Of a stretch of DNA of 64,000 bases, positions 8,047 through 62,271 are shown one piece after another; within the stretch, counting starts at the first letter, position 1; each line of letters starts with the position of its first letter. The notes under the pieces are model-generated. The model searched no databases and was not told the origin of the DNA. It saw nothing but the letters and a program-made list of their open reading frames with translations. The DNA comes from an uncultured Sphingomonadaceae bacterium. Its GTDB lineage: Bacteria > Pseudomonadota > Alphaproteobacteria > Sphingomonadales > Sphingomonadaceae. The position numbers were made by a program, and so were the translations under genes. Location of the stretch: contig CANLUL010000001.1 in assembly GCA_947494305.1 (NCBI GenBank), positions 620,001 to 684,000 on the forward strand, written 5' to 3'.

Positions 8047-8055
8047 GTTCCGCAT

Positions 8056-8069: not shown

Positions 8070-8096
8070 TGTGAATTGGCTTCATTGTCTTTAGAC

Positions 8097-8116: not shown

Positions 8117-8128
8117 AGGGGAAGGTAC

Positions 8129-9112: not shown

Positions 9113-9119
9113 AGGAAGG

Positions 9120-9824
9120 TCAAATCAACCCTTGTGAGCGAAAGCTGGTATGTCCATCCTTGCCGATAATGATATGGTCATGAACCGCAATACCCAGTTT
9201 TCGCCCGGCGTCGCAGATATCTTTTGTAATCGCGATATCTTGACGGCTGGGAGTTGAATCGCCGCTCGGATGATTGTGGACGATGATGATTGCGGCAGAA
9301 CCTAAGTCCAGTGCCCTTTTAATCACTTCACGGGTATAGATCGCAGATTGATCAATCGAACCTTCACTAACCAGTTCGTCGCGGATCAATCGGTTTTTGC
9401 TGTCTAGATGAAGCACCCGGACCCGTTCATTGATCAGATGCGCCATATCGGCGCGCAGATAATCAAGCAACGCCTGCCAACTGGTCAAAATCGGTTTCTC
9501 CCGCATGGGTTCGGCGATTAATCTCAGTGCCGTTACCTGGACGATTTTCAATGCTGCTGCACTTGTTTCGCCAATTCCGGGAAAGTTTTTCAGACTGTCA
9601 CCATTGGCAGTCAGCAAAGCTGAGAAACCCCCAAATTCTCCAATCAAATCCTTCGCGAGCCTTTTTGTATCTCTGCGGGGGATGGCCAGAGCGAGTAAAT
9701 ACTCAACCAATTCATGATCGTGCAAGTCGTCGCCTTGACCCTTCAATAGCCGCTGTCTTAGCCGTGCACGATGTCCCTTGCCATGGTGGAGGGCCGGTAA
9801 ATGGATTTCGTTCACTTTGGACAT
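9120..9824 (-). CDS. radC: RadC family JAMM-domain protein
   Basis: A 234-residue protein with an N-terminal helix-hairpin-helix region (FPGIGETSAAALKIV, about 82-96) and a C-terminal MPN/JAMM domain. That domain has the metal-site motif HNHPSGDSTPSRQD, preceded by an upstream Glu in LVSEGSIDQ. The family was named for DNA repair, but its biochemical role is not settled. It converges on ppk2 with a 7-base gap. Its start faces the ydbH-type operon. Confidence 0.93.
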   Translation of the reverse strand: MSKVNEIHLPALHHGKGHRARLRQRLLKGQGDDLHDHELVEYLLALAIPRRDTKRLAKDLIGEFGGFSALLTANGDSLKNFPGIGETSAAALKIVQVTALRLIAEPMREKPILTSWQALLDYLRADMAHLINERVRVLHLDSKNRLIRDELVSEGSIDQSAIYTREVIKRALDLGSAAIIIVHNHPSGDSTPSRQDIAITKDICDAGRKLGIAVHDHIIIGKDGHTSFRSQGLI

Positions 9825-36022: not shown

Positions 36023-36979
36023 CTATGCTGAGGAAGACATTCCCGCCATTCTGACCGCAAGTGCAGGATCGGTAGGATCGTTCCAATCTTGACGTTTTGC
36101 CCATTCAATCAATGAAGTTGGCTTGAAATTGAAAATCCGATCAATCTCCGCATTGTCGGCAATGAGCGGCGAAATGGCCTGCACATTGTAGAACCGATAG
36201 AAACTGGCCATACCGTGGTAGACGCTATGCGGTTCAACCGTGGCGGATCCTGTCACAAGCATGCTCATATTGGACGCGAATTCATCTGGTGTAAGGCTTT
36301 GGAAGGTCACTGTTTTTCCAGCAGCTTCGCTCAGACGCTCGGCAACCTGATCGCCGACCAGTGCTTCAGGGCCGCCAATTGCAAAACGACCACTTGGCAG
36401 GTCACTCCGTTCAAGAGCTTCAACCATATAGGCGGCGACATCATCCAGACAAATCCATGAAATTTGGAGATCTGGCTTGGCTGGATAGGCAAATATGCCT
36501 TTGGCAACGATCGATGGTTTACTCCAGCTGCGGATCATATTGTCCATGAACACTTTCGGCTCAAAGATCGCATAGTCAATGCCTGTACCTATGATTGCCT
36601 TTTCGATGGCACGTCGACCGTCATGGGCTGGGTTTTCATTATCTTCATGATGGACGTAGCAACTGGTGTTGAAGACTATTTTCTGCAAACCATTTGCGGT
36701 CGCTGCTGCCGCGATATTGTTTCCGAGTGCGGTTGCTTTTTCGAGATCAAAAACGAAAGGAAGGTGAATGGCAATGGCATCCATTCCCTTTGCCGCCGCA
36801 ATCAATGATTCCTTATTGTAGAGGTCGGCTTGAACTGTTTCTACATCCGCAAATTCGGTACCTTGCAGTGCAGCGGTATTGCGCAAAGCAGCGACTGGTG
36901 TCATCCCGGCTGCTATCAAACGCGTCAAAAGAGGGTGGCCTTGATCGCCGGTCGCGCCGATCACCAATATTCTATTCAT
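36023..36979 (-). CDS. NmrA-like NAD(P)-binding protein
   Basis: A 318-residue atypical SDR. The glycine motif ILVIGATGDQGHPLLTRL is at the N-terminus and the family lacks the YxxxK pair. Relatives act as redox sensors or as reductases of quinones and similar compounds. The ATG at 36979 overlaps the upstream flavoprotein stop by one base (TGATG); a TTG one codon upstream is possible. A distant paralog is at 45167-46099 with the same ending (WxKRQDW). Last gene of the leftward Rieske/MFS/flavoprotein block. Confidence 0.82.
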   Translation of the reverse strand: MNRILVIGATGDQGHPLLTRLIAAGMTPVAALRNTAALQGTEFADVETVQADLYNKESLIAAAKGMDAIAIHLPFVFDLEKATALGNNIAAAATANGLQKIVFNTSCYVHHEDNENPAHDGRRAIEKAIIGTGIDYAIFEPKVFMDNMIRSWSKPSIVAKGIFAYPAKPDLQISWICLDDVAAYMVEALERSDLPSGRFAIGGPEALVGDQVAERLSEAAGKTVTFQSLTPDEFASNMSMLVTGSATVEPHSVYHGMASFYRFYNVQAISPLIADNAEIDRIFNFKPTSLIEWAKRQDWNDPTDPALAVRMAGMSSSA

Positions 36980-38607
36980 CAACTATTCTCCAGTCGCGCG
37001 GCTGATTTGCCCGCGATATATCCAAAGGTGAGGGCGGGTCCCAACGTGCCACCGGCACCCGCATAAACGCTGCCCGTCGGACAGCTGATCACATTGCCTG
37101 CGCCGAACAGTCCGGCAATCGGATCACCGTCCACATCGAGTATCTGCGCTTGCCCGTTGGTTTTGGGACCGCCGTTGGTTCCCAAAGTCCCCATGTTAAT
37201 TTCTACTGCATAAAATGGTCCGGTATTGACGGTACCCAGCGTCGCTGCCGCTCCCGGTCGGGAGCGGTCACCGTAAAAGCGATCATATTCACTAACACCT
37301 CGACCAAATTCGGGATCCTCGGCATTTTCCGCATTGCTGTTAAAGTCCGTTACGGTCGTTAATAATTGCTCACCATCTATCCCCAATGTTGCAGCCAATT
37401 CTTCAAGACTATTTGCGGTTGTAATCCAATCAGGAAGGTCTTGCCCGGGCATGGCAGACGCTATTGGATATCGGCTGACATATTGATCATCCATGATCAG
37501 GTAGGCTGGCAAATTTGGATAATCATAAGTGGCCGGATCAAAAGCCTGAAAAGCCCCTGCAAGTGACGAGTAGTTATTAGCCTCATTGCAAAAGCGCTTT
37601 CCCTGTCGGTTGACCATGATGCTGTGCGGCATGGTGCGTTCGATGAGAACTGGAAGAGAGCGCTGAACATCCTGTCCATTCGTCCCGTTGGCGGGCCAAC
37701 TGGCACCGGCGATTGAAAGTGTAGGCATCCACCAGGCGCTGGTCATATTGCCCAGACTTGCCCCGGCCGACATCGCCATTTTCAAACCATCGCCCGTGTT
37801 CATCTGCGGTGAGGCAGGCGCGTTAAGCGGGCCGCGCAGAAATGTGGTTTTTAGGTCTTCGTCCCATTCAAAGCCGCCGGTGGCGAGAATAACGCCGCGC
37901 GATGCTTTAATTGTTTCGCCGTCTTCCAGGATAACTCCCGTTACCTGATCATTCTCAATCAATAGTTTCTTCGCAGCTGTTCCCAGTTGCGGAACGATAT
38001 CCTTGTCGAGACAGGCTTTGAGCAGACGGCCAACAAGTGCCTGTCCCCAACCACGCAAATCACCATCAATCCGGCGCTGCATTTCTTCCGGTTCGATCAT
38101 GCCGCTGCCACCGCCAAGTGGTGTTTCACGGAGCATCATCCGTTGAACGTCACCGCCGTTGTATATCTTGTCCGCCCATTCGCCGAGCGTTGTATAGTCA
38201 AACAGCTCGTTATCGAGCGCCCGGCCGCCGCCCGTTTTTGCACCGGGACGATCAAGATAATAATCTGGATAGCCGTTGAGTACGCTCAGTTCTGCTGCAC
38301 CTTGTGATCCGAGGAAAGCCAGCGCCTGTGTCCCTTCGTCGACAAAGGCTTCGAGCGTTTCGTCATTCATTTCGCCATGATCCAGCGACCGGAAATAGGA
38401 TAGTGCAGCTTCGCGATCGTCATCGATACCGGCTTCTTGCATCGCTGGATTATTGGGAACCCAAACAATCCCACCCGATATGGCCGCTGTTCCGCCAAGT
38501 TTGTCACCTTTTTCAATGACGGTAACTTTCGCACCGCTATCATGGGCTGCCAAAGCGGCTGTTAAACCCGAGGCACCTGCTCCGATGATGAGAACATCTG
38601 TATCCAT
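36979..38607 (-). CDS. 3-ketosteroid-dehydrogenase-like FAD flavoprotein
   Basis: A 542-residue member of the fumarate reductase/KstD flavoprotein superfamily. DVLIIGAGASGLTAALAA is the FAD site, and GGTAAISGGIVWVPNNP is the segment shared with 3-oxosteroid dehydrogenases. The C-terminal GSVYAGAGGTLGPALTFGYIAG closes over the flavin. Likely dehydrogenation or reduction of an alicyclic ketone; steroid activity is not proven by these motifs. It is one base short of the SDR stop and overlaps the NmrA start, so it is in an operon. Confidence 0.82.
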   Translation of the reverse strand: MDTDVLIIGAGASGLTAALAAHDSGAKVTVIEKGDKLGGTAAISGGIVWVPNNPAMQEAGIDDDREAALSYFRSLDHGEMNDETLEAFVDEGTQALAFLGSQGAAELSVLNGYPDYYLDRPGAKTGGGRALDNELFDYTTLGEWADKIYNGGDVQRMMLRETPLGGGSGMIEPEEMQRRIDGDLRGWGQALVGRLLKACLDKDIVPQLGTAAKKLLIENDQVTGVILEDGETIKASRGVILATGGFEWDEDLKTTFLRGPLNAPASPQMNTGDGLKMAMSAGASLGNMTSAWWMPTLSIAGASWPANGTNGQDVQRSLPVLIERTMPHSIMVNRQGKRFCNEANNYSSLAGAFQAFDPATYDYPNLPAYLIMDDQYVSRYPIASAMPGQDLPDWITTANSLEELAATLGIDGEQLLTTVTDFNSNAENAEDPEFGRGVSEYDRFYGDRSRPGAAATLGTVNTGPFYAVEINMGTLGTNGGPKTNGQAQILDVDGDPIAGLFGAGNVISCPTGSVYAGAGGTLGPALTFGYIAGKSAARLENS

Positions 38608-49564: not shown

Positions 49565-50545
49565 ATGACGGATCAAGCCATCGACCGCGATAAGTTACTC
49601 GACATCTATACCCGCACCACGAAGGTGAACCGGACAGACGAACGTTTTCGCGAATTGCTGATGCAGGGCAAGATCGCCGTAATGTATTACTGCGTGCGCG
49701 GTCAGGAAGTCGTTTCGGCTTCCGCAATGGCAGCGCTCAACGACGATGATTATGTCGTTTGCACCTATCGCGGGCAGGGCGAGCAAACCGCAAAGGGCGT
49801 CCCGATGGAAGCTTATTGGGCGGAATGTCTCGGCAAAGCGACCGGCACTTGCAAAGGTAAGGGCGGCACGATGCATATCACCCATCCCGAAACCGGCGTG
49901 ATGGTAACCACCGGCGTTGTGGGTTCTGGACTTCCTATTGCAAACGGCCTCGCGATGGCTTCGCAAAATAGCGGCGATGGCAAGGTCACGATTGTGACTT
50001 TCGGCGACGGAGCCGCCAATATCGGAGGTTTCCATGAGGCGATGAATATGGCGCAGCTATATAAACTGCCGATTGTTTTTGTTTGTATCAACAACCGCTA
50101 TGGTGAGCATACTGCCTATGCCGATCACACTGACAGTGTGAATATTGCGTCCCGTGCGGAAGGTTACGGCATGCGCAGCGCGCATGTTGACGGCACTTAT
50201 GTCGAGCAAGTCTATCCCGCAATTCAGGAAGCGGTAGATCGCGCGCGGGCTGGTGACGGACCAACTTTGGTCGAAGCCATGTGTTACCGGATGCAGGGTC
50301 ACTTCTTCGGTTCCGATTTCTCATACATGCCACCGGAGCATATTGAAGAAATGAACGCAGAAGACTGTATGCCGAAATTGCGTAACTATATGTTGGAAGC
50401 GCAGTTTACGGAAGCCGAACTGGACGCGATTATTGCGGACGTGGACGGTCAATTGGATGTCGCGGTGCAGGCTGCACTCGACGCGCCATTCCCCGATGCG
50501 AGCGAACTTCGCAAAGATGTCTTTGAAGAGGAGATCGCGGCATGA
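49565..50545 (+). CDS. Thiamine-diphosphate-dependent dehydrogenase E1 alpha subunit (acetoin/2-oxoacid type)
   Basis: A 326-residue E1 alpha. The ThDP motif runs from G147-D-G to N176-N177. GTCKGKGGTMHI and VVGSGLPIANGLA are family blocks. The His usual in YRxHG is Gln here (TYRGQGEQTAKG). Such proteins decarboxylate a 2-oxoacid or cleave an acetoin-type hydroxyketone and pass the acyl group to lipoamide. Its stop overlaps the beta gene start (ATGA). The substrate is unknown; context suggests a pathway intermediate rather than pyruvate. Confidence 0.88.
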   Translation: MTDQAIDRDKLLDIYTRTTKVNRTDERFRELLMQGKIAVMYYCVRGQEVVSASAMAALNDDDYVVCTYRGQGEQTAKGVPMEAYWAECLGKATGTCKGKGGTMHITHPETGVMVTTGVVGSGLPIANGLAMASQNSGDGKVTIVTFGDGAANIGGFHEAMNMAQLYKLPIVFVCINNRYGEHTAYADHTDSVNIASRAEGYGMRSAHVDGTYVEQVYPAIQEAVDRARAGDGPTLVEAMCYRMQGHFFGSDFSYMPPEHIEEMNAEDCMPKLRNYMLEAQFTEAELDAIIADVDGQLDVAVQAALDAPFPDASELRKDVFEEEIAA

Positions 50546-51531
50546 GCGGTACAATCACACTCACGCAAGGCTTGAACCAAGCTATTGACGAAGCCATGGC
50601 TGCGGACGACACGGTCTTCTGTCTCGGCGAAGATGTTGCGGCGAAACAAGGCGGCGGTGTTTTCAAGATCACTAGCGGCCTTACGGAAAAATACGGTGAA
50701 AATCGCATCCGTGCTACGCCGATTTCAGAGACTGCTATTGTTGGCGCTGCGGTTGGTGCGGCGCTGGCCGGGCACCGTCCCATTTGTGAAATCATGCTGA
50801 TGAACTTTGTCGGCGTGTGCATGGATCAGATCGTCAACCACGCTGCGAAATTGCGCTTCATGTCTGGCGGTCAAACCAATGTACCGATGGTGCTGCGGAC
50901 CACGACGGGTGTTGGTGTTGGTTTTGGCGGGCAGCATAGTGATATGCTGGAAGCATGGTTTGCACATGTTGCCGGCCTGAAAATTGTCACTGCCTCGAAT
51001 GCGGCAGATGCCAAAGGTTTGATGCGCTCCGCAATCGAATGCAATGATCCCGTAATTTTTATCGAAAATGTGATTAGCTACGGCCTGACTTCCGATGATC
51101 CGGGTAAGGATCACAGAGTGCCCTTAGGTAAAGCAGCCATCACACGCGAAGGCACGGATTGCTCGATCATTACATATGGTCGGACGGTCATGGATGCGCT
51201 TGAAGTCGCCGAAACCTTGGAAGAAGAAGGCATCTCAGTTGAGATTGTCGATCTTCGAACCATCGCTCCTTATGACGAAGAAACTGTATTGGCATCTGTT
51301 CGAAAAACAGGCCGCGCAGTGACCCTTCATGAAGCGGTAAAACCATATGGAACAGGCGCAGAAATGTCTGCCAAAATCCATGAAGAGCTGTTCAACGAGT
51401 TGAAGGCGCCAGTACAACGAGTGGGCGGTAGCTTCTCACCCGTGCCATTTGTGGCGCTTGAACAAGACTGGATCCCGAGCAAAAGTGAGCTTGCTGATGC
51501 AGTCAGAACTGCAGTGAACTGGAAGAAGTAA
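50542..51531 (+). CDS. Thiamine-diphosphate-dependent dehydrogenase E1 beta subunit
   Basis: A 329-residue E1 beta, partner of the preceding gene in an alpha2beta2 enzyme. VFCLGEDVAAKQGGGVFKIT holds the cofactor-activating Glu region. RIRATPISETAIVGAAVGAA, PICEIMLMNF and TTTGVGVGFGGQHSDMLEAWFAHVAGLKIV are typical. The C-terminal transketolase-type domain has VEIVDLRTIAPYDEETVLASV and KTGRAVTLHEA. The start ATG overlaps the alpha stop, so the two subunits are made together. Confidence 0.92.
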   Translation: MSGTITLTQGLNQAIDEAMAADDTVFCLGEDVAAKQGGGVFKITSGLTEKYGENRIRATPISETAIVGAAVGAALAGHRPICEIMLMNFVGVCMDQIVNHAAKLRFMSGGQTNVPMVLRTTTGVGVGFGGQHSDMLEAWFAHVAGLKIVTASNAADAKGLMRSAIECNDPVIFIENVISYGLTSDDPGKDHRVPLGKAAITREGTDCSIITYGRTVMDALEVAETLEEEGISVEIVDLRTIAPYDEETVLASVRKTGRAVTLHEAVKPYGTGAEMSAKIHEELFNELKAPVQRVGGSFSPVPFVALEQDWIPSKSELADAVRTAVNWKK

Positions 51532-51765: not shown

Positions 51766-52169
51766 GCTCCGATAGCAAACCCGCCGCGCTTCTCTCGGAA
51801 GTTTATCGGTTGGCCGGAGAGCGTGACTGGGATGCGGTTAAAGCGCGGGTTCATCCTGATTTCATTCTATATGAAGCCGAAAGTCTTCCCTTTGGCGGCG
51901 AATGGAAGGGAAAGGATGCCCTCCAACGCTGCGCAGCCGCCATGTATGCGACTTGGGAAGAAGCTTCGGTCAATATCCATGAAATTACCGGCGGCGAAGA
52001 ATGGGCCGTTGTGGTTTTATCCCTGACGATGAAATCAAAGAAAACGGGGCGGACATTTACTCAAACTGTCAATGAAGCAGCCCGGTTTGATGATGGCCTT
52101 TTGAAGGAGCTCCGCATCCACTATTTTGATGCGGCGGAAGTAACGGCAGAGGCTGGCGAAGCAGCTTAG
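51762..52169 (+). CDS. SnoaL/NTF2-like protein
   Basis: A 135-residue cone-fold protein starting at GTG and overlapping the lipoyl gene stop by four bases. LAGERDWDAVKARVHPDFILYEAESLPFGGEWKGKDAL is the usual SnoaL N-terminus with the pocket-lining hydrophobic pattern, and EEWAVVVLSLTMKSKKTGRTFTQTVNEAARFDDG the sheet. Last gene of the rightward operon. No catalytic residues can be assigned. Its end overlaps the convergent LuxR-type gene by four bases. Confidence 0.8.
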   Translation: MSSDSKPAALLSEVYRLAGERDWDAVKARVHPDFILYEAESLPFGGEWKGKDALQRCAAAMYATWEEASVNIHEITGGEEWAVVVLSLTMKSKKTGRTFTQTVNEAARFDDGLLKELRIHYFDAAEVTAEAGEAA

Positions 52170-52975
52170 TCACTCGCTCCCAAATAACCCAATTGACCTG
52201 CCTTAAAGATTGTTTGAGCCCGGTTCACCGAATCCAGTTTTTCACCAGCCCTGTGAATATGATAACGTACAGTCGCGTGACTGAGACTGATGATCATTCC
52301 AACTTCTTTGTCGGTTTTGCCAATCGCTGCCCAGCGGAGGCATTCCACCTCGCGTTTGGATAGTTCGCAATCGGATGGGATGCGCTGTGTCTTGCGTCTA
52401 CATGCAACATATCCAGCAATAAACCGCCGCGTTAACAACCCGAATAGAACGCCATGCTCATCGAAATCATCGGCTAAATCATCTTTAGTGCGATCAAGTG
52501 GAGAAAAACTACTTGCAGAAATCTGGGCAAAAGGAAGGTGCATTGGCACAACAATATAGGCCGCGCTTGTCGACGTTTCTGCAAAATATTTTTGCAGATC
52601 AATATCCTCCAGATAGTGATTGGGCCAATGGCCATAAAAACCCGATGCGTTGCACCAGAATATCTCGCTTTTATATCTACACGCTCTGGGAAGCGGAGAA
52701 TGGAGTGCCAGACGATGATCTTCCCACCACCGCTCTCCATCATCCATCCATCCGAATATTTCTGCGTTGAGGATGCCACCATCGGCATCGATCATGGGTT
52801 CGTTGGAGGCAATATCATCGCTGAGCGCTGCACGGTAACCGCGTTCGCGCGCGATTTCATTGAGGGCGACTGCAGCGTCATGAACATCGTCAATTGAACG
52901 AATGGTAACCTGCTCCAGCATCTGGCCCAATTGGCTTAATTCTGGCGGATTTGAGGCTTTATCATTTGAAGTCAT
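52166..52975 (-). CDS. LuxR-family transcriptional regulator (solo)
   Basis: A 269-residue protein with an N-terminal autoinducer-binding-like domain and a C-terminal LuxR helix-turn-helix (LSKREVECLRWAAIGKTDKEVGMIISLSHATVRYHIHRAGEKL). In the sensory part WW...HRLALHSPLPRACRYKSEIFW aligns with the WxxxY..D-P region of TraR, but the invariant Asp before Pro is Ser. Acyl-homoserine lactone binding is therefore doubtful. No luxI gene is present. It sits between the two catabolic operons and may regulate both in response to a pathway compound (inference). Confidence 0.86.
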   Translation of the reverse strand: MTSNDKASNPPELSQLGQMLEQVTIRSIDDVHDAAVALNEIARERGYRAALSDDIASNEPMIDADGGILNAEIFGWMDDGERWWEDHRLALHSPLPRACRYKSEIFWCNASGFYGHWPNHYLEDIDLQKYFAETSTSAAYIVVPMHLPFAQISASSFSPLDRTKDDLADDFDEHGVLFGLLTRRFIAGYVACRRKTQRIPSDCELSKREVECLRWAAIGKTDKEVGMIISLSHATVRYHIHRAGEKLDSVNRAQTIFKAGQLGYLGASD

Positions 52976-53049: not shown

Positions 53050-54258
53050 TCAGAGGCCTAACACAGTCTTGGCGATAATATTCTTTTGAACCTCATTCGA
53101 ACCACCATAGATGGTAGATGCACGGCTATTCAAATATTTGCCCATCGCGGTTTGCGATTCTGCAATGCCAACAGGTTCTGGTGCATCATTGCCATAAAGT
53201 GGCCTATCCATAGGAAGTTGCAGCGCATCATAGCCCAGCAAGTCCGTTCGAAATTCGTCAATATCCTGACCAAGGTTGGAAGCCAGCAACTTAATCAATG
53301 AGGTCTGCGGTCCGGGTTGCCGGCCTTTTGCCAGCTCAGCCAGAATACGCAACTCGGTTACTTCCAAAGCTTCCGCACGCAATTTCAATTTTGCCAGTCT
53401 ATTGGCATGTTCCTGACTGTGGCTCATCGCGCCGTTCGTGCCCGATGGGACAGTATCGCCGAGCAGCTTTAAACTCTCTATCTGCGCAATCAACCGCGGT
53501 GCAGAACAAGAGCCGCCACGTTCATTTTCCAGCAGATATTTTGCGATAGTCCAGCCTTGGCCTTCTTCGCCAACCAGATATTTTGCATCGGTTTCGGCGC
53601 TATCGAAAAACACTTGATTTACTTCATGATCACCGGACATGGACATGATCGGTGATATTGTGATCCCAGGTTGATCCAGCGGCACCAGAAGAAAGCTAAT
53701 TCCGGCTTGCTTCTTCACATCGGGATTGGTCCGCACCAAACAGAATATCCAATTGGAATGATGCGCATGCGTGGTCCAGATTTTGGAACCGTTGATAATA
53801 TATTTATCACCGTCAAGGCGCGCGCTGGTTTTTAGTGAAGCAAGGTCTGATCCGCTGCCGGGTTCGGAATATCCTTGCGCCCAATAATCTTCCCCGGAAC
53901 GGATGCGCGGCAGGAAATATTCCTTTTGCTCGGGCGATCCAAATTCGCACAAAACTGGTCCCAGGAGGCGCAAAGCGATGGCTGAAACACCGGGAGCTCC
54001 GGCAAGCGCGCATTCTTTTTCAAAAATGTAACGCTGTGTATGAGTCCAATCCGTTCCGCCATATTCAACTGGCCAATGATAGGCGACCCAACCTTTGTCA
54101 TTCAATATACGATGCCATTCTAGGCCAATATCCGGTTCCGCAAAAACACCCGGAGTCTGGCGTGTGCCAGCGCGCAGACGTTCGGTAAGGTTCTCGTCCA
54201 GAAACGTTCTGACTTCATCACGAAACGCTATTTCTTCCGGGGTGAATTCCATATCCAT
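53050..54258 (-). CDS. Acyl-CoA dehydrogenase
   Basis: A 402-residue FAD enzyme that introduces the alpha-beta double bond into an acyl-CoA. QGYSEPGSGSDLASLKTSA and YIINGSKIWTTHAHHSNWIFCLVRT are the two ACAD signature regions; the C-terminus STIYGGSNEVQKNIIAKTVLGL is the FAD-contact block. Last gene of the leftward operon beginning at 61135. With the 362-residue ACAD at 57315-58403 it may form a heteromeric enzyme like those acting on bulky CoA esters such as steroids. Confidence 0.92.
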   Translation of the reverse strand: MDMEFTPEEIAFRDEVRTFLDENLTERLRAGTRQTPGVFAEPDIGLEWHRILNDKGWVAYHWPVEYGGTDWTHTQRYIFEKECALAGAPGVSAIALRLLGPVLCEFGSPEQKEYFLPRIRSGEDYWAQGYSEPGSGSDLASLKTSARLDGDKYIINGSKIWTTHAHHSNWIFCLVRTNPDVKKQAGISFLLVPLDQPGITISPIMSMSGDHEVNQVFFDSAETDAKYLVGEEGQGWTIAKYLLENERGGSCSAPRLIAQIESLKLLGDTVPSGTNGAMSHSQEHANRLAKLKLRAEALEVTELRILAELAKGRQPGPQTSLIKLLASNLGQDIDEFRTDLLGYDALQLPMDRPLYGNDAPEPVGIAESQTAMGKYLNSRASTIYGGSNEVQKNIIAKTVLGL

Positions 54259-54262
54259 TATT

Positions 54263-55003
54263 CTATTCCCCTTCGCGCATGGCCCAAGCGATACCGCGCC
54301 TCAACAAGTCATAATAGACCGGGTAATTCCAAGAGCATCGTTCCGGTACAGGATAAAAGTCCTGCATCCCGGGAAGGTCATAATGCCCGCGACAATGTCC
54401 GAGGATATTATAAACTATACGCCCTTTGCCAATGTCGCGCGTGTACAAGATGGGAACAACTGTTTCAGGCCAATCTTCTTCGACGAAACCTTCGGCTTTT
54501 CCTTCGAAACGGGTTACCATCAGCGTATCGATATCTGCTGTGGTGTTGGTCAAATATAATTCATCTTCAATAACGAAATCTTCAATACCGCGGGTCAGCT
54601 CGTGGTCTTTGTTGACCACTTCTACGTTGAACTGACCAATGGGAGGATGCGCTTTAAACTGCGTGCCAAGCATTTCCATAACATCCGGGCGATCATCCGG
54701 TGCATCGACACCATCATCGGTGAACTTCAAGATGGAATTGGTTCCGTGCAATGCCAGCCACTTTCCACCGTTGTCTAACCAGGCCTTTATCGCGACGGCT
54801 TCTTCCTCACTAGGCATGAAGTCACATGTGTAAGTGATCAACATGCTGCATTGATTTAGACGCTCTATGTCTGAGTAGTCACAGGCAACTGTGGTGCGAA
54901 CTCGGGGGTGGTCCGCAAGCAACTTGAGGACTTCCAAGCGAGCAAAATCAATGTCATGATATTTCCCAACTGCAACAAAGTGCGCATCAATGCGGTCCGA
55001 CAT
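54263..55003 (-). CDS. ThuA-domain protein
   Basis: A 246-residue glutamine-amidotransferase-like fold of the ThuA (trehalose utilisation) family. ITYTCDFMPSEEEAVAIKAWLDNGGKWLALHGTN is the core, with GTQFKAHPPIGQFNVEV and ILYTRDIGKGRIVYNILGHCRGHYD later. ThuA-like proteins usually act on sugars; finding one four bases from an ACAD and an SDR gene is unusual. It may hydrolyse or isomerise a polar ring-opened intermediate, but no function can be given. Confidence 0.83.
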   Translation of the reverse strand: MSDRIDAHFVAVGKYHDIDFARLEVLKLLADHPRVRTTVACDYSDIERLNQCSMLITYTCDFMPSEEEAVAIKAWLDNGGKWLALHGTNSILKFTDDGVDAPDDRPDVMEMLGTQFKAHPPIGQFNVEVVNKDHELTRGIEDFVIEDELYLTNTTADIDTLMVTRFEGKAEGFVEEDWPETVVPILYTRDIGKGRIVYNILGHCRGHYDLPGMQDFYPVPERCSWNYPVYYDLLRRGIAWAMREGE

Positions 55004-55006
55004 AAT

Positions 55007-55777
55007 CTATTCCCTGATAGTGCTGGCGCCATCGACCGTCAGGTCTGCACCACTGGTAAAGCTTGATTCGTCCGAAGACAGGAAGAGAATAGCTTTTGCC
55101 ACTTCCTCCGGTTCACCAACCCGGCCTACCGGATGGGCCGATGCCATCGCAACTTCAATCTCGTCCGGTGTTGCTCCTCCAGCATTTAAATAGCGTTCAT
55201 ACATCGGAGTACGGATCGCGCCGGGATGTACCGTATTAGCGCGAACAGGAACATCCCGAGCGGCACAATCCAATGCAACAGAGCGCGTTAAGTGGGTTAC
55301 CCCTGCTTTGGACGCACAATAGGCGGCCATATTTGCTCCGGCACGGGCTGCTAGCATGGAACCAACATTTACAATTGTTCCCGGTTCGCCCGCTTTTTCC
55401 ATCGCCGGCAAAGCTGCGCGGCAGCCATAGAATGTGCCGTTTAGGTTAATATCTATATGCCGATTCCAGCTATCCAGATCGACATCAACTGTGTTTCCAG
55501 GTTCAGAGATTCCGGCGATATTACAAAGGCTGGTGAGCTTGCCGAATTTGTTGACGGTGGCATCCACTGCCGCATTCCAGGCATCCAGATCGCGGACATC
55601 CAATGAAACTGCTGCGGCGTTATCGCCAAGCTCATCGGCTAGGGCCTGCGCTTTGTCGAGTTGAAGGTCACCCAGCATTACGCTGCCACCCTCTTCGACA
55701 AACATACGCCCGACTGTCGCGCCTATGCCTTCTGCGCCGCCAGATATTAGCGCGACTTTTCCTGACATGCGTCCCAT
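55007..55777 (-). CDS. SDR family oxidoreductase
   Basis: A 256-residue classical SDR. ALISGGAEGIGATVGRMF is near residue 9, the NNAG site reads CNIAGISEPG, Ser is in IVNVGSMLAA, and the catalytic pair is in AAYCASKAGVTHL. The C-terminus is FTSGADLTVDGASTIRE. It lies three bases from the ThuA gene and directly abuts the thiolase-like gene, so it is one transcript. Likely a 3-hydroxyacyl-CoA or ring-alcohol dehydrogenase. Confidence 0.88.
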   Translation of the reverse strand: MGRMSGKVALISGGAEGIGATVGRMFVEEGGSVMLGDLQLDKAQALADELGDNAAAVSLDVRDLDAWNAAVDATVNKFGKLTSLCNIAGISEPGNTVDVDLDSWNRHIDINLNGTFYGCRAALPAMEKAGEPGTIVNVGSMLAARAGANMAAYCASKAGVTHLTRSVALDCAARDVPVRANTVHPGAIRTPMYERYLNAGGATPDEIEVAMASAHPVGRVGEPEEVAKAILFLSSDESSFTSGADLTVDGASTIRE

Positions 55778-56926
55778 CTATCTCTCCAAAATGGCGACGC
55801 CGGATAAACCGGGGGCACCGTAAACATGACTATAAGCAACTTTGGGATCGTTCGGGACTTGCCGTTCTCCGCCGCGACCACGCAACTGCACTGTGTTCTC
55901 ATAAACCTGACGCAAGCCGGATGCACCTATGGGCTCTCCGCATGCCAAGCATCCCCCATCGGTGTTGACGGGAAGTGAACCATTCAACTCTGTTCTTCCT
56001 TCAGCAAACCATTGTTCCTGTTCGCCATCTTTGCAAAATCCATTTTCGGCCATATGCATGATTTCCGCGCCGGACTCCGTATCTTGAAGCTGAGCAACGT
56101 CTACATCCTCGGGGCCAATACCGGCCATTTCAAACGCGGCTTTGGATGCGAGAATTGTTGGTTTTCCGCCTCCTTCAACATCCACCGATGGGGAGAAGAC
56201 TTCGAATGACCCTGGTGGGCGGGTGCGCACGGCGATACTGGATATCTTCACTGCATCGCTAATGCCAAGTTCCTTGACCTTCTTCTCACTGGCCAAAATG
56301 AGGGCGACGCCGCCTTCAGCTGGCGAGCAGAACATATATTTGGTCAGTGGATCATTGACCATGGGTGCGTTCATGATCGTTTCCAAATCAATCTGGGAAC
56401 GACGCCAAGCATGATCTGTTTTCTCGCCATTGCGAAATGCTTTTTCCGCTACTTTGCCCAGAGTTTCGCGGCTGATACCATGCAATTGCATGTAACGCTG
56501 GATCTTCAGAGCAAAGAATTGTGTCGTCAGCATCATGCCGGTTTCACCATACCATTCGGGCAACCCATAGGATTTTGGATCGGCGTTAAAGGCACCGCGC
56601 GGATGCTTGTCAAAACCAACTGCCAAAGCAACATCATATTCACCCGCCGCAACCGCAAAGCGTGCCGAGGCGAGGGCGCTGCCGCCCGTTGCACAGCCAT
56701 TGCTGACGTTAATGAATGGCAATCCGGTTAATCCCAGTTCGTTGACCATGATATCGGCACTTCCGGCAGCAGCGGAGCCGCCATAAGCACAGCCCACATC
56801 TTCCCACGCGATACCGGCATCTTCCATCGCTTGGCGAACAGCGAAGACACCCTGATCCCGTCCCGAACGACCTTCTGTGCGTCCAAAGGGATGGATTCCG
56901 GCACCGATTATATAAACATTATTCAT
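55778..56926 (-). CDS. Thiolase-like (SCP-x/lipid-transfer type) enzyme
   Basis: A 382-residue thiolase-fold protein. Cys78 in VSNGCATGGSAL sits at the nucleophile site. The usual GHP histidine is Glu331 (ACGEPIGASGLRQ) and the C-terminal CxG cysteine region reads SHVYGAPG, so two of the three classical thiolase residues are gone. The start overlaps the DUF35 gene stop (ATGA). In steroid side-chain pathways similar proteins (Ltp2) pair with DUF35 proteins as retro-aldolases. That role fits here better than thiolysis, but is inference. Confidence 0.88.
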   Translation of the reverse strand: MNNVYIIGAGIHPFGRTEGRSGRDQGVFAVRQAMEDAGIAWEDVGCAYGGSAAAGSADIMVNELGLTGLPFINVSNGCATGGSALASARFAVAAGEYDVALAVGFDKHPRGAFNADPKSYGLPEWYGETGMMLTTQFFALKIQRYMQLHGISRETLGKVAEKAFRNGEKTDHAWRRSQIDLETIMNAPMVNDPLTKYMFCSPAEGGVALILASEKKVKELGISDAVKISSIAVRTRPPGSFEVFSPSVDVEGGGKPTILASKAAFEMAGIGPEDVDVAQLQDTESGAEIMHMAENGFCKDGEQEQWFAEGRTELNGSLPVNTDGGCLACGEPIGASGLRQVYENTVQLRGRGGERQVPNDPKVAYSHVYGAPGLSGVAILER

Positions 56927-57318
56927 GATGATTCCTCCGGCCGAAACGCGTAAGTTGATTGAGTGTCGTTAAAAGGGGTGACGACAAATTCCATCGACAT
57001 GCCTAGTTTTAGATCATCCAGAGATGCGCCGACAATACGTGTCTCGACGATCGTCTCTCCCGGCAATTCGACGTAGCCAATCAGATAAGGTTCAAACACT
57101 TCTGGACCGGTGTAAGGTTCTTTCGGTTTGAAGTCCTGGCGCGTCCAGGACCACAAAGTTCCTTTTCTAGACAGCGCATAAGGCGTTACATTTTCTGCCG
57201 CATCGCCTTCTGGATATGGAAAAATTATCTTTCCATCTGGTAGTTGGCCGCCAAGTAATGTTGGCTCAGTCTCCTGCGTCCAAAGATTTTCTGCAATAGG
57301 TGCAAGTGTCTCGCTCAT
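56923..57318 (-). CDS. DUF35 OB-fold protein without zinc ribbon cysteines
   Basis: A 131-residue partner-type protein. Its C-terminal half (LWSWTRQDFKPKEPYTGPEVFEPYLIGYVELPGETIVETRIVG) is the DUF35 OB fold. The N-terminal rubredoxin-like part reads LLGGQLPDGKIIFPYPEG, where relatives have CxxC; the whole protein has no Cys, so no zinc is bound there. It overlaps the thiolase-like gene and the ACAD gene by four bases each, pointing to a stable complex with the thiolase-like protein. Confidence 0.85.
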   Translation of the reverse strand: MSETLAPIAENLWTQETEPTLLGGQLPDGKIIFPYPEGDAAENVTPYALSRKGTLWSWTRQDFKPKEPYTGPEVFEPYLIGYVELPGETIVETRIVGASLDDLKLGMSMEFVVTPFNDTQSTYAFRPEESS

Positions 57319-58403
57319 GCCGCCTCCGAATATTCTGAAAGATTGGTTGCCGCGTCGCCGAACAAACGTTCGAGTAGGATGATCCGCTTCATCGCATGGC
57401 CCACCGCCAGCTCGTCTGTAATTCCCATGCCGCCATGAAACTGTACGGCACGCTTGGCAATGAAATGTGCATTCTCACCAATAAAAGCTTTTGCACCGGC
57501 ATATTGGGCTTGCCAGGTTGGCGTTTCATCGCGTTGAATTAAAGTAGTGCGCCAGAGCATGGAACGCATTTGTTCAAGTTGAGCATAGCAATCAACCAGT
57601 CCATGCTGGATCACTTGGAAGCTTCCAATCGCCGTACCAAATTGTTCGCGCTGTTTTACATACTCAACCGTATCGTCAAACAAACGCTGCGCTAGTCCAA
57701 CCATCTCAGCACTGGCTAGAAGGCGAATTTCCGAAACTATCTCTGCAAATTTATCGGAATCGATATCCAGTTTGGCACTCGCTGCTACACTCACATTGCG
57801 CAATTGAATTTCTGATGCCATGCTGCCATCCGTCAAGCGATAGCCGCGTTTGTGCAAACCATCTGCGGTCGAGGGAACGAGGAATATCGACATCTCTCCG
57901 CCGCAGTCACAGGTCACGAGCAAATGATCGGCTATCATTCCATTCAGAACAAATCGCTTCTCACCCGAAATGACGAAGTCATCGCCAGACTGTTTGGCTG
58001 TCGTTGTTTTAGGTGTGAGATTGAATCGACCACTCGGTTCAGCAAATGCCGTCGCAACAATTTTGCTGCCATCGAGAACCGATTCCAACGTATCGCTTGC
58101 ACCAGCCGCTGCTAAAATCTTCGCTGAAAGCACACCATTTTCTAACCATGGATCAACCGCGTTTCCTTGGCCCATGGCTTCGGCAATCACGGCTAAATCG
58201 GTCAATGATCCGCCCATGCCGCCCTGATTTTCATCAGCGGCTAGGGCTATAAACCCCAACTCTGCCAACTCCTGCCAACGCGCTTTGTCATAGGCGCCGT
58301 CCATCTCACGAATTTTTCGCCGCGCTTCCACATCAATCGGCGCGACAAAGCGTTCGGCGGTCGCCTTGAACATTTCTTGATCTTCGGAGAGATCAAAATT
58401 CAT
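57315..58403 (-). CDS. Acyl-CoA dehydrogenase (short type)
   Basis: A 362-residue ACAD. FDLSEDQEMFKATAERFV is the N-terminal helix, ATAFAEPSGRFNLTPKTT and VISGEKRFVLNGMIADHLLV the middle block, and AVQFHGGMGITDELAVGHAMKRIILLERLFGD the C-terminal block with QFHGG. Members of this shorter branch often pair with a longer ACAD. Overlaps both neighbours (P450 and DUF35 genes) by four bases. Probably co-assembles with, or acts beside, the ACAD at 53050-54258. Confidence 0.9.
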   Translation of the reverse strand: MNFDLSEDQEMFKATAERFVAPIDVEARRKIREMDGAYDKARWQELAELGFIALAADENQGGMGGSLTDLAVIAEAMGQGNAVDPWLENGVLSAKILAAAGASDTLESVLDGSKIVATAFAEPSGRFNLTPKTTTAKQSGDDFVISGEKRFVLNGMIADHLLVTCDCGGEMSIFLVPSTADGLHKRGYRLTDGSMASEIQLRNVSVAASAKLDIDSDKFAEIVSEIRLLASAEMVGLAQRLFDDTVEYVKQREQFGTAIGSFQVIQHGLVDCYAQLEQMRSMLWRTTLIQRDETPTWQAQYAGAKAFIGENAHFIAKRAVQFHGGMGITDELAVGHAMKRIILLERLFGDAATNLSEYSEAA

Positions 58404-59644
58404 GCAATTTTCTCGTAGCTGATCGGAAGCTTGGTTACACCGCGGAGAAGAATATTGGGTAGCACGGTAATTGCGCTCTCATCTGCCAGCTGGAAATTGG
58501 TCAAACGAGACAGAAGCTCATCAAACGCAACGGCGATTTCCTTTCGGCTCAACATGTTGCCGACGCACATATGAATGCCTTTGCCAAAGGCCAGATGTTG
58601 GCGGACATTTTTGCGTTCAATGTCAAATTTGTCAGGATTTTCAAATTTCTTCGGATCGCGATTGGCCGCTGCATAGCGGATTTGCAATGTTGCTCCTTTG
58701 GGAATTTTTACGCCTCCCAATTCAGCATCTTTCATTACGATGCGCCACATGCCCGCGGACGGCGTCTCATAGCGAAGCGATTCTTCCACCATGTTACCAA
58801 TCAGTTTCGGATCATTGCCGCCGGCAGCCGCCACCGCTTTCTCCATTTGATCTGGATTACGGATAAGCTGGAGCATTAGGCCAGCGATGGTCGATGTCGT
58901 CGTTTCATTTCCCGCCACCATGAACTGTTGCATGATTGAAATAATTTCTGGATCAGTCAGGGGCTCTTCGCCATCGATCCGCGCTTCGACCAGATCGGTT
59001 AGAAGGTCATCACCGCCATTGGCACGGCGCTCATCAATCTTGCCTTTCATATAATGTTGATATTCGACAAATGATCGCGCGCATTCCAGCTCGCGATCCC
59101 GATCAACCAACTGGCTGAAACGATCGACTGCTGCATCAGACCAATATTTCACCTGCTTGGGATCATTATCCAGTCCGATTTGCTGCGCTATCATTGCGAC
59201 CGGCAATGGCACAGCAAATTCCTCGACAAACTCGCATTCGTTCTTTCCCGAGAGATTGTCGATAAGTTGAATTGCTTTGGCGCGCATATCATCTTCAATC
59301 GCGTTTACGCGCGGCATAGAGAATGCGAGATTTACCAGTTTGCGAAACCGTGTGTGTACCGGAGGATCAGCGGTCAATAATGTTGCTTCGTTGGGAAAGC
59401 CTTCCGCCAGAATAGCATCAATCTCAGGATCGTCCGCGCCCATTAAGGAGCCAAAGTCGTTGGAGAACTCTTCTACACGTCCAGTCGCTTCGGCCACCAA
59501 TTCATAGTCATAGACAATATAGGTGTTTTGCTCTGGTACATGCTGGATTTTCATATCAGCCGCATGTGCTTCGCGATAGAACTCAAATGGGTCGGTCAGC
59601 ACTTCTGGTGCAAAGAAGTTTTGCTGATCAATCGGTTTGTTCAC
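58400..59644 (-). CDS. Cytochrome P450
   Basis: A 414-residue soluble bacterial P450. The I-helix oxygen motif is AGNETTTS, the ExxR is in ESLRYETPSAGMWRIV, and the haem-binding loop is FGKGIHMCVGNMLSRKE with the Cys ligand at 360. It hydroxylates or epoxidises its substrate with a ferredoxin/reductase pair not found here. I choose the GTG at 59644 because AGAGGGAG stands eight bases upstream; an ATG at 59683 would add 13 residues. It overlaps the ACAD gene stop-start (ATGA). Confidence 0.93.
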   Translation of the reverse strand: MNKPIDQQNFFAPEVLTDPFEFYREAHAADMKIQHVPEQNTYIVYDYELVAEATGRVEEFSNDFGSLMGADDPEIDAILAEGFPNEATLLTADPPVHTRFRKLVNLAFSMPRVNAIEDDMRAKAIQLIDNLSGKNECEFVEEFAVPLPVAMIAQQIGLDNDPKQVKYWSDAAVDRFSQLVDRDRELECARSFVEYQHYMKGKIDERRANGGDDLLTDLVEARIDGEEPLTDPEIISIMQQFMVAGNETTTSTIAGLMLQLIRNPDQMEKAVAAAGGNDPKLIGNMVEESLRYETPSAGMWRIVMKDAELGGVKIPKGATLQIRYAAANRDPKKFENPDKFDIERKNVRQHLAFGKGIHMCVGNMLSRKEIAVAFDELLSRLTNFQLADESAITVLPNILLRGVTKLPISYEKIA

Positions 59645-59735
59645 TTGGTCGACTCCCTCTACTTTGAAGTACCATAGCGCCAACTTTCGGAATCTGGCGA
59701 TGCGTCAATTTGTTAGTCACACGATTAAAGGGATT

Positions 59736-60121: not shown

Positions 60122-61135
60122 CTAAGCGATTTTGAGGATCATCTTGCCTTGATTGGAACCTTCGAACAGGCGCATGAAAGCATCGTAAGTATTTTCAATG
60201 CCTTCATCGATATGCTCATCGATATTGATTTTGCCTTCGGCAGCGCAAACACCCATTTCAGCAGCGCCTTCGCCAAAACGTTCAACATAGTCGGCAACAA
60301 GCAGGCCCTGAATTTTCGCACGATGTACGATCAGTTTCCAGAGGTTCCGCGCGCCAACAGGTTCGGTGCTATTATACTCGCTGATCAGTCCGCAAAGGCC
60401 TATGCGGGCATCGTTGTTGATGTTGTCCAATCCAGCGTCCAATATTATCCCGCCGACATTTTCGAAAATAACATCGACTCCATCCGGTGCCGCTTCTTTG
60501 ATAGCGGCATTGAGGGCGGCTTGGTCCTTGCCGCGATAATCTATCGCTGCGTCATAATTATATCTTTCCGTCAGTCTGGCACATTTTTCAGGACCACCGG
60601 CAATTCCAACAGCTCGACATCCTTTAATTTTTGCCAGTTGTCCAACAATCGACCCAACCGCTCCAGCAGCGCCTGTGACCAAGACGGTGTCGCCTTCTTT
60701 GGGTTCGCAAACTTCAAGGAAACCGAAATAGGCAGTCATTCCCACAGCACCGAAAAGTGAAAGATAGTTTGTGACGGACGGAACCGCATCGGGATCGATA
60801 GGCTGAGTAAAGCCGCCGACCATGCCCACCGAATATTCCTCAATACCATTCAAGCCCATCACCCATTGGCCTTTTTCAAAGCCTTCCGCTTTACTCTCTT
60901 CGACGATGCCAATGGTGCTTGCGCGAAAAGGTGAATCGAGCGGGATCGGCGGCATATATGATGGACGATCATCCATCCAGCCGCGCATCGCTGGGTCAAG
61001 AGACGCATATTGGTTGTGAATCAGAAACTGCCCATCCGCGATCTCCGGAAGTGGTTCCTCTCGCAATTCAAAATCTTCTGGAACAGGATCTCCATTGGGT
61101 CGGCGTTTTAGGATGAAGCGTTTGTTGGTGGTCAT
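60122..61135 (-). CDS. NADP-dependent MDR oxidoreductase (leukotriene B4 dehydrogenase/CurA-like)
   Basis: A 337-residue zinc-free medium-chain reductase. RFILKRRPNGDPVPEDFELREEPLPEI is the usual N-terminus of the YncB/CurA branch. LVTGAAGAVGSIVGQLAKI is the nucleotide motif, GIAGGPEKCARL follows, and VDVIFENVGG is a strand-turn typical of the group. Such enzymes reduce alpha-beta double bonds of enones. The ATG at 61135 is preferred; an earlier in-frame start at 61246 adds 37 unrelated residues. Head gene of the leftward operon, divergent from a paralog. Confidence 0.9.
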   Translation of the reverse strand: MTTNKRFILKRRPNGDPVPEDFELREEPLPEIADGQFLIHNQYASLDPAMRGWMDDRPSYMPPIPLDSPFRASTIGIVEESKAEGFEKGQWVMGLNGIEEYSVGMVGGFTQPIDPDAVPSVTNYLSLFGAVGMTAYFGFLEVCEPKEGDTVLVTGAAGAVGSIVGQLAKIKGCRAVGIAGGPEKCARLTERYNYDAAIDYRGKDQAALNAAIKEAAPDGVDVIFENVGGIILDAGLDNINNDARIGLCGLISEYNSTEPVGARNLWKLIVHRAKIQGLLVADYVERFGEGAAEMGVCAAEGKINIDEHIDEGIENTYDAFMRLFEGSNQGKMILKIA

Positions 61136-61203
61136 AGAGAATGCTCTTTCTGATGATTGTTTTCTCACTAGCAAATTAAGCCATATCACTGGCCAACAAA
61201 TCT

Positions 61204-61244
61204 GCACTACTGTCAGTAACGATAAGCCCTTTTGGGCGTAGTGC
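61204..61244. promoter_or_regulatory. Nested inverted repeats between two divergent MDR genes
   Basis: GCACTAC (61204-61210) and GTAGTGC (61238-61244) form a 7-bp inverted pair 27 bases apart; inside it AGCCCTTTTGGGC can fold into a small hairpin. The element lies in the 137-base gap between divergent MDR genes, 28 bases before the rightward one. It may be a shared operator. Confidence 0.4.
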
Positions 61245-61272
61245 AAAATTTATGAGACAAGGACGCAATCCC

Positions 61273-62271
61273 ATGACAATGACCCGGCAATGGCTACTCA
61301 ACGATCACCCACGTGGACGCGGTATCGAAGACGGTGATTTCAAACTCGCTGAAACCCAACTGCCTCCACCGGGCGACGGAGAGATTTTGGTGCAGACCAA
61401 GTTTTTGGGATTTGATCCAGCCCAGAAGGGATGGATGGAGAATATTGCCGACTATGTTGCGCCCATGGCCATAGGCGATGTAATGCGCGGCAGTGCCATC
61501 AGTGAGGTGATTGAGAGCAATCACCCGAAATTTGCCGTGGGCGATGTCCTGATGGGGCAAACCGGTTGGACCGAATATGCCATTTCTGATGGTGAAGGCA
61601 TGACCAAGGTGGATACAGCACTTTCTCCAACGACCATGTTGTCGGTGCTGGGAACAACAGGAGTGACGGCCTATTGCGGCTTATTCAAAATCGGCAAGCC
61701 TGTCGCCGGAGACACAGTGGTTGTATCGGGAGCAGCAGGTGCGACTGGGTCAATTGTCGGCCAGTTAGCAAAAATTGCAGGCTGCCGGGTTGTTGGTATC
61801 GCAGGCGGTCCGGAAAAATGTCAGTGGCTGGTTGACGAAGCTGGTTATGATGCGGCGATTGATTACAAGGCCGGTGACGTAAAAAAACAGCTTAAAGAGA
61901 GCTGCCCTAAAGGTGTTGATGTCATCTTCGATAATGTTGGCGGTACAATATTGAATGACATGCTAGCCTGTATCGCAACAAATGCGCGGGTCGTTATTTG
62001 TGGCGGTATCAGTCGCTATGAAACGGGAAACTTGCCTGCTGGTCCTGAAAATTATTTCAATCTCGTTTTTCGCCGCGCTTCGATGGCGGGCTTTATCGTG
62101 CTTGATTGGGCAGATGAATTCCCAGGCATCCGCAAACGTCTCGAAGGTTTTGTGCAGGATGGTAGCCTGAAATATCAGGAAGACATTCAGGAAGGTTTTG
62201 AAAACGCGCCCGCCACGCTTAAACGCCTTTTTGTCGGCGCCAATCGCGGCAAGCAGCTTTTGAAATTGTAG
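61273..62271 (+). CDS. NADP-dependent MDR oxidoreductase (paralog)
   Basis: A 332-residue zinc-free MDR, clearly paralogous to the one at 60122-61135. VVSGAAGATGSIVGQLAKIAGCRVVGIAGGPEKC is the nucleotide site and VDVIFDNVGGTILNDML the following strand. It likely reduces an enone or enoyl substrate. The start is chosen at ATG 61273 (AAGGA upstream); 61252 and 61279 are alternatives. Divergent from its paralog; a shared control region lies between them. Confidence 0.9.
   Translation: MTMTRQWLLNDHPRGRGIEDGDFKLAETQLPPPGDGEILVQTKFLGFDPAQKGWMENIADYVAPMAIGDVMRGSAISEVIESNHPKFAVGDVLMGQTGWTEYAISDGEGMTKVDTALSPTTMLSVLGTTGVTAYCGLFKIGKPVAGDTVVVSGAAGATGSIVGQLAKIAGCRVVGIAGGPEKCQWLVDEAGYDAAIDYKAGDVKKQLKESCPKGVDVIFDNVGGTILNDMLACIATNARVVICGGISRYETGNLPAGPENYFNLVFRRASMAGFIVLDWADEFPGIRKRLEGFVQDGSLKYQEDIQEGFENAPATLKRLFVGANRGKQLLKL

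Follow-up and report, generated by a model that had tools for sequence, protein, structure and literature searches.

Within a 64,000-nucleotide stretch of an uncultured Sphingomonadaceae bacterium (hereafter the window; positions 620,001 to 684,000 of contig CANLUL010000001.1, assembly GCA_947494305.1), a thiolase-fold protein is encoded together with a small DUF35 protein, and we describe here the altered active site of the one and the missing zinc ligands of the other. The DUF35 gene lies upstream of the thiolase gene, and the two open reading frames (ORFs) overlap by 4 bases:

56923..57318, minus strand, 131 aa: DUF35/OB-fold partner, free of Cys, with a zinc-ribbon scaffold lacking its Cys ligands and an OB domain
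55778..56926, minus strand, 382 aa: thiolase-fold protein with Cys78 kept, QDTE (281–284) in place of HDCF, GEP (330–332) in place of GHP and HVYG (367–370) in the CxG loop

The thiolase-fold protein matches the Pfam families Thiolase_C_1, Thiolase_N and Thiolase_C, the last two above cut-off. Its partner matches OB_ChsH2_C only (2.5e-14), with no zf-ChsH2 match even at an E value of 1. The partner is the sole PF01796 match in the genome, and Thiolase_C_1 has four matches there, including the window thiolase, two of them weak.

An altered thiolase active site

Residue numbers given here include the start Met. Cys78, within NGCAT, occupies the thiolase nucleophile position, and Glu331 (in CGEPIGASG) stands in the place of the GHP His; a first, sequence-only reading of this DNA had pointed to both residues, and each is found in all 48 rows of the clade described below. 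That reading did not mention the larger change, in which the HDCF/NEAF motif has become QDTE (Gln281, Thr283 and Glu284). The second catalytic Cys is absent at both of its possible places, with Thr283 standing for the HDCF Cys and the C-terminal CxG loop reading SHVYGAPG, without a Cys in the window thiolase. The loop's lack of Cys, also recorded by the earlier reading, is true and yet not distinctive: SCP2-type relatives normally lack that Cys too, only 1 of the 40 tree rows outside the clade has one at 366–370 (locus L107; 2 of the 40 have only gaps there), and we rejected it as a special trait. The HDAF motifs of BbsB and 7yvy are likewise without Cys, so loss of the second Cys does not by itself exclude thiolase activity.

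In a MAFFT alignment with the DUF35-dependent aldolases, Gln281 occupies the column of the HDCF His, which is Tyr294 in Ltp2 and Tyr302 in Sal; Thr283 that of the second catalytic Cys (His296 in Ltp2, Cys304 in Sal); and Glu331 that of the GHP His (Tyr344 in Ltp2, Gln352 in Sal). Cys78 aligns with Gly in both aldolases. The Ltp2 and Sal numbers were confirmed by residue counts in the HMMER rows for 6ok1 and 9myr, the latter being Sal-Shy(DUF35), whose numbering runs 24 ahead of that of CtSal.

The residue set is strictly conserved and defines a clade

To place the protein, we built an 88-row tree from 80 locus rows, the window and 7 PDB chains, the chains lacking the ends that HMMER did not print. 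The input comprised 154 thiolase-like ORF matches, numbered here by locus, with those of the window's own genome (L001–L009, L013 and L094) left out; 11 of the 80 genome-contig loci were kept for their GEP copy. The 48 rows that carry GEP form a single clade (support 100/100) whose stem measures 1.64 changes per site. Positions 78, 281, 283 and 331 read C, Q, T and E in all 48, position 284 has E in 45 rows and D in the other 3, and His367 is invariant but for one Gln. Among the other 40 rows, position 78 is C in 31, 281 is H in 32 and Y in 7, 283 is C in 29 and A in 7, and 331 is H in 33. As these alignments stand, the pattern Cys/QDT[E,D]/GEP is far beyond chance.

The same pattern holds across the wider set of matches: NGCAT, QDTE and GEP occur together in 80/80 genome-contig loci (77–88% identity; the best 80 of 555 relatives), and the same Cys, QDTE or QDTD, and GEP in all ten plasmid loci L124–L133 (49–72% identity; from 40 of 570 records). 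Identity drops from 49% to 36% among the plasmid matches listed (40 of 570) and from 86% to 37% across 398 proteobacterial genomes, a search in which at most four candidates were scored per genome. Of the next proteobacterial relatives (L096–L123, 28 loci), 27 have GHP with HDCF, HDAF or HDAT; the remaining one, L119, has ADNT and GEA. Its thiolase (1435-2679; GACAA/ADNT/GEA) lies beside a four-Cys DUF35 gene (983-1492) and sits on a long branch, unplaced in the tree.

The Ltp2/Sal aldolases form a separate clade of 7 rows, also with support of 100/100, and the GEP clade falls outside it. Several long branches meet among the non-GEP rows, which leaves their inner order unsure and the sister of the GEP clade unplaced. 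Motifs and tree together rule out both an ordinary thiolase II, the placement that would have spoken against the earlier reading, and a simple member of the Ltp2/Sal group, the relationship for which that reading had proposed a phylogeny. A distinct active-site type (Cys/QDT/GEP) on the DUF35-thiolase chassis is thus supported, as far as aligned residues and phylogeny can indicate. Among the papers listed in an open-access library for DUF35 and thiolase variants, judged by titles and abstract openings, none treats a QDTE/GEP class.

A decayed gene is ruled out by this strict conservation and by the ratios of nonsynonymous to synonymous differences (pN/pS). These are 0.05–0.19 for the thiolase gene (13 pairs), indicating strong purifying selection, and 0.12–0.31 for the DUF35 gene (10 pairs), indicating weaker purifying selection than on its neighbor; the values are ratios of proportions, synonymous divergence (dS) being saturated against the window copy.

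Members of the clade occur in sphingomonads, some marine gammaproteobacteria and actinobacteria, and thus in two phyla. At an E value of 1e-80, the thiolase is present in 49 of 296 Sphingomonadales genomes. The laboratory strain Novosphingobium aromaticivorans DSM 12444 has the gene pair as SARO_RS18650 and SARO_RS18655. Among 40 near genomes, thiolase and DUF35 occur together in 23, DUF35 alone in 1 (67% complete) and neither in 16. A plasmid search with the DUF35 query returned 17 records, all of which are also among the thiolase matches listed. Within the window's genus, 21 of 23 other genomes carry the thiolase at 72–75% identity to the window copy, whereas the closest copies among the matches listed, at 88%, are in other sphingomonads (a search that may omit records very near the window's genome). 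Because of this difference, the window's copy probably arrived by horizontal transfer.

A DUF35 partner without zinc ligands

The sequence-only reading had also stated that every zinc-ribbon Cys is gone from the DUF35 partner, and the protein indeed contains no Cys at all. Across 114 aligned DUF35 rows (counted without L008, L009, L013 and L094, which are the window itself), the four zinc columns are wholly free of Cys in 105, one of these being a fragment (L037) with gaps there, and all four are Cys in 9. Of these nine, eight directly partner a GEP thiolase (L127, L128, L130, L131, L133, L153, L157 and L158), on plasmids of Rhodococcus and Streptomyces; since L127 and L157 are nearly identical, as are L133 and L158, they amount to six distinct four-Cys partners. 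The ninth, L119, neighbors the different odd thiolase noted above, not a GEP enzyme. An actinobacterial partner without Cys at the zinc columns is found in L152 (Rhodococcus DMU1). In L129 (Mycobacterium branderi; loci 4446-5636 and 7983-9137), the nearest DUF35 has no zinc Cys; it adjoins a second thiolase and lies about 1.9 kb from the GEP thiolase.

Because eight actinobacterial GEP members keep a four-Cys DUF35, we regard zinc loss and the Glu site as separate traits. Mapped onto the thiolase tree, the zinc ligands must have changed state at least twice, whether or not L129 is counted, against one change for GEP, and these counts led us to reject the idea that zinc was lost in the course of the active-site change. 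The earlier reading had joined a zinc-free partner and a Glu active site as marks of one possible type of aldolase; the two are unlinked.

The predicted structure of the DUF35 partner has a mean predicted local distance difference test score (pLDDT) of 90.4 and matches whole DUF35 chains over residues 1–131 with Z scores from 12.8 to 10.5, among them those of BbsAB, the acetoacetyl-CoA (coenzyme A) thiolase complex, Ltp2 and PhlABC; the nearest is the BbsA chain 7pxp_E (Z 12.8). Because the match extends over the whole chain, the zinc-ribbon scaffold seems, in this model, to be kept without its ligands. DUF35 structures known by 2019 all bind zinc, according to PMC6996347, and a C3H1 site is termed an outlier among DUF35 proteins in PMC12329534; a metal-free member, as the sequence would have it, would be unusual.

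Predicted fold of the enzyme

The thiolase model (mean pLDDT 71.5, predicted template-modeling score 0.81) is nearest in fold to SCP2 thiolase (Z 42.4; for 6hsp, root mean square deviation 2.2 over 345 residues), BbsAB (42.0) and acetoacetyl-CoA thiolase (41.9). PhlC-type acylases follow at about 40, TbSLP at 38, Ltp2 at 37.3 and Sal at 35.2. With differences of 1 Z unit counted as ties, the thiolase group is separated from the aldolases. The structure alignments covered 42 of 80 loci for the thiolase and 46 of 78 for DUF35.

Gene neighborhood

The pair sits inside a packed minus-strand run from 59683 to 53050, whose genes are separated by overlaps or gaps of a few bases; they read, in order of transcription, P450, acyl-CoA dehydrogenase (PimD-like), DUF35, thiolase, short-chain dehydrogenase/reductase (SDR), ThuA and acyl-CoA dehydrogenase (PimC-like). 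These and the nearby genes of interest are as follows:

58400..59683, minus strand: cytochrome P450, first gene of the run
57315..58403, minus strand: acyl-CoA dehydrogenase, PimD-like subunit, overlapping the DUF35 gene
55007..55777, minus strand: SDR dehydrogenase directly 3' of the thiolase gene, a candidate for the beta-hydroxy to beta-keto step
54263..55003, minus strand: ThuA-domain protein
53050..54258, minus strand: acyl-CoA dehydrogenase, PimC-like subunit
52166..52975, minus strand: LuxR-type regulator, with homologues near the pair in many relatives
49565..51531, plus strand: 2-oxoacid dehydrogenase E1 alpha and E1 beta (or acetoin dehydrogenase)

Across the 80 genome-contig loci, homologues of each acyl-CoA dehydrogenase occur in 64, of the P450 in 60, of the SDR in 61, of ThuA in 53 and of DUF35 in 78, the contigs of the other 2 ending there; 48 loci hold all of them. 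Ten Sphingopyxis-type loci have neither SDR nor ThuA, and four Porticoccaceae/SAR92 loci neither P450 nor SDR.

The E1 alpha/beta genes, which in the window are followed by a SnoaL-like gene, also lie near the pair in six plasmid loci of Novosphingobium, Croceicoccus and Sphingobium, and three genomes from the window's own genus have E1 genes there too. On plasmids of Novosphingobium and Sphingobium, the GEP pair and its dehydrogenase are followed by genes for E1 and E2. Among the 15 annotated plasmid loci (L131 and L157 are unannotated and stand outside this count), an acyl-CoA dehydrogenase gene lies directly 3' of the thiolase gene in 14, the exception being L130; E1 alpha/beta genes occur in six, an APH-type phosphotransferase in seven and MaoC or enoyl-CoA hydratase in six. 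An APH phosphotransferase and an acyl-CoA dehydrogenase are found near the GEP pair in L127, L128, L132, L133, L155, L156 and L158 (Pfam assignments checked for L127 and L155), a gene set that recalls the 4-hydroxyacyl-CoA chemistry of LvaA/LvaC and ACAD10/11 treated in PMC12440821.

Elsewhere in the window there are genes for a Rieske oxygenase, an enoyl-CoA hydratase and a CoA ligase, and for a flavoprotein (36979-38607) that resembles 3-oxosteroid 1-dehydrogenase 7p18 and 4-oxocyclohexanecarboxylate 2-dehydrogenase ChcC1, below NCBIfam cut-offs; together these four would suggest breakdown of a cyclic compound, with no particular compound named. Two divergent genes of the ADH_N_2/zinc-binding dehydrogenase family lie head to head at 60122-62271. 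For orientation, clusters for estrogen and bile salts are covered in PMC7793797, PMC12882949 and PMC8399759, and tomatine degradation in PMC10653915. In the edc cluster of Caenibius (Novosphingobium) tardaugens, a chsH2-like gene adjoins a lipid-transfer-protein gene (EGO55_13530 and EGO55_13535; PMC7793797).

Proposed reaction and alternatives

By analogy with related enzymes and with the predicted fold in view, we tentatively propose, at somewhat short of an even chance, a DUF35-bound enzyme of Cys/Glu type that would cut a C–C bond of a bulky beta-ketoacyl-CoA by a retro-Claisen reaction through an acyl-Cys, with Glu331 as the acid-base in place of the lost His and Cys. The substrate would presumably be made by the neighboring acyl-CoA dehydrogenase and SDR enzymes. 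Glu331 would deprotonate Cys78, which would attack the beta-carbonyl, with the oxyanion held by Gln281; Glu331 would then take over the task of the missing second Cys and protonate the departing acyl-CoA at its alpha carbon, and the acyl-Cys would be released to CoA or water. Such a mechanism would place the Cys-plus-Glu logic of 3-hydroxy-3-methylglutaryl (HMG)-CoA synthase, in which a Cys and Glu pair are the key residues (PMC6392133), in an SCP2-type thiolase. The DUF35 protein, which we infer to bind the thiolase-fold protein from gene overlap, co-occurrence and known complexes, would shape the substrate cleft as a scaffold, with no need of zinc. We favor this chemistry because the fold is nearer to thiolases and because the Cys is kept in acyl-Cys enzymes and lost in aldolases: PMC6392133 describes it as kept in PhlC, where Cys88 was seen acetylated, and PMC8399759 and PMC12329534 describe the nucleophile Cys as lost in aldolases.

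Several points weigh against the retro-Claisen proposal. The catalytic loops of the model have pLDDT below 50 (76–78, 282–284 and 323–334 in model numbering, which is one lower), so no geometry backs the roles given to Glu331 and Gln281. An anionic Glu beside the thioester would be a poor oxyanion partner unless protonated and would be less suited than His to a Claisen enolate, and it is because Glu is the worse oxyanion neighbor that we hold our estimate below even; both usual positions of the second Cys are, moreover, empty. Nor is the neighborhood constant across loci, some of whose contigs are short. The 12 nearest loci (L014–L025) have thiolase and SDR, with DUF35 in 10, on stretches where homologues of the window's P450 and acyl-CoA dehydrogenases were looked for and not found, and an SDR homologue was not found in 19 of the 80 loci, including the ten Sphingopyxis-type and the gammaproteobacterial ones. 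Finally, Rhodococcus L127 (4722-6343) and L128 (3121-4721) encode an aldolase of Ltp2/Sal type (YDCF, with Gly replacing Cys) and a four-Cys DUF35 belonging to it, nearby and on the same strand as the GEP pair; because this separate aldolase is present, the arrangement suggests that the GEP pair may act at a different step.

The earlier reading had proposed another type of aldolase. The distinct site with a partner free of zinc ligands stands, but an enzyme of the Ltp2/Sal sort is not supported, since in the known DUF35 aldolases the Cys is missing and a Tyr is needed at the place of Gln281; Y302F nearly abolishes CtSal activity, as reported in PMC12329534. A DUF35 partner is not diagnostic of an aldolase either, as one is also present in BbsAB, in the archaeal acetoacetyl-CoA thiolase and in the PhlABC acylase. 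Aldolase activity is thus one of several possibilities, ranking weaker than retro-Claisen cleavage. In its non-covalent form, Glu331 with Glu284 or Gln281 would handle the protons of a beta-hydroxyacyl-CoA, and Cys78 would be structural or hold the substrate. Positions 281, 283 and 331 are those repurposed in Ltp2 and Sal (PMC12329534), Glu331 sits where Ltp2 has its catalytic acid Tyr344, a carboxylate is a reasonable aldolase base, the DUF35 gene overlaps, and 6 of the 15 annotated plasmid loci have MaoC or enoyl-CoA hydratase somewhere in the stretch. However, the essential Tyr is Gln in 48/48 rows, the Cys absent from known aldolases is invariant in a clade that lies outside theirs, and the window's DUF35 carries no fused hydratase, nor does one lie in its overlapping gene run; we consider this alternative unlikely, if the least improbable of those weighed here. 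Distinctly less probable is a covalent aldolase, in which an acyl or beta-hydroxyacyl chain would sit on Cys78 and Glu331 would cut the C–C bond by acid-base catalysis, in effect the chemistry of HMG-CoA synthase in reverse, on an SCP2-type scaffold and beside a zinc-free DUF35.

An acyltransferase or hydrolase would keep the acyl group on Cys78 and use Glu331 to activate water or a non-CoA acceptor, like the PhlABC acylase or a beta-diketone hydrolase. PhlC does act via acyl-Cys88 in complex with a DUF35 subunit (PMC6392133), and a Glu in the GHP motif might be better suited to activating water than to holding an enolate, but PhlC itself retains the GHP His (His347), and the surrounding acyl-CoA dehydrogenases, CoA ligase, enoyl-CoA hydratase and SDRs fit breakdown of CoA thioesters. 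This option, also unlikely, ranks between the two aldolase mechanisms. The least plausible is a catalytically dead scaffold or CoA-binding protein that organizes neighboring enzymes, as other inert partner subunits do: three of the four thiolase catalytic positions are replaced, and the thiolase-fold protein MsTLP1 shows no thiolase activity (PMC3406046), yet a dead site would drift, and the substituted polar set Cys, Gln, Thr and Glu is invariant across two phyla, which makes an inert site very improbable.

Implications and comparison with known systems

DUF35-bound thiolase-fold enzymes have already been shown to perform thiolysis, acyl transfer and retro-aldol cleavage by a few residue swaps. 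The GEP clade extends this series with Cys, Gln, Thr and Glu, another combination that is strictly conserved and that is present in many sphingomonads and environmental actinobacteria and often beside acyl-CoA dehydrogenase and P450 genes. We see it as a well-bounded candidate for a new way of cleaving C–C bonds as bulky compounds are degraded, and the occurrence of one active site with and without zinc ligands offers a natural test of the role of zinc in DUF35 proteins.

The SCP2-type thiolase (6hsj/6hsp/6hrv, zebrafish type 1) gives the top Z score of 42.4, tied with BbsAB and 6esq, and shares the nucleophile Cys and the Cys-free CxG loop, but has HDCF and GHP intact. We know of no DUF35 partner for it. 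BbsAB (benzoylsuccinyl-CoA thiolase, 7pxp) is the top PDB sequence match and among the nearest folds, with a DUF35 subunit and the nucleophile Cys in common; it differs in having HDAF and GHP, at about 30% identity, and its DUF35 is counted in PMC12329534 among homologues with four zinc Cys, unlike the window partner. The Friedel-Crafts acylase PhlABC shares a DUF35 complex with an acyl-Cys thiolase-fold subunit, whereas it keeps the GHP His347 and has a third, HMGS-like subunit and a four-Cys zinc ribbon (PMC6392133).

The steroid aldolase Ltp2-ChsH2(DUF35) (6ok1) also unites a thiolase fold with DUF35 and has positions 281, 283 and 331 repurposed, but with Gly for Cys78, Tyr294 for Gln281, His296 for Thr283 and Tyr344 for Glu331, and in a separate clade. 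The bile acid aldolase Sal-Shy(DUF35) (9myr) shares the same chassis and differs in its Gly for Cys78, essential Tyr302 and Cys304, Gln352 for Glu331 and, in its DUF35, a C3H1 zinc finger (PMC12329534). Set beside these systems, and judged by its residues, the GEP pair is a new version within the DUF35-thiolase kind.

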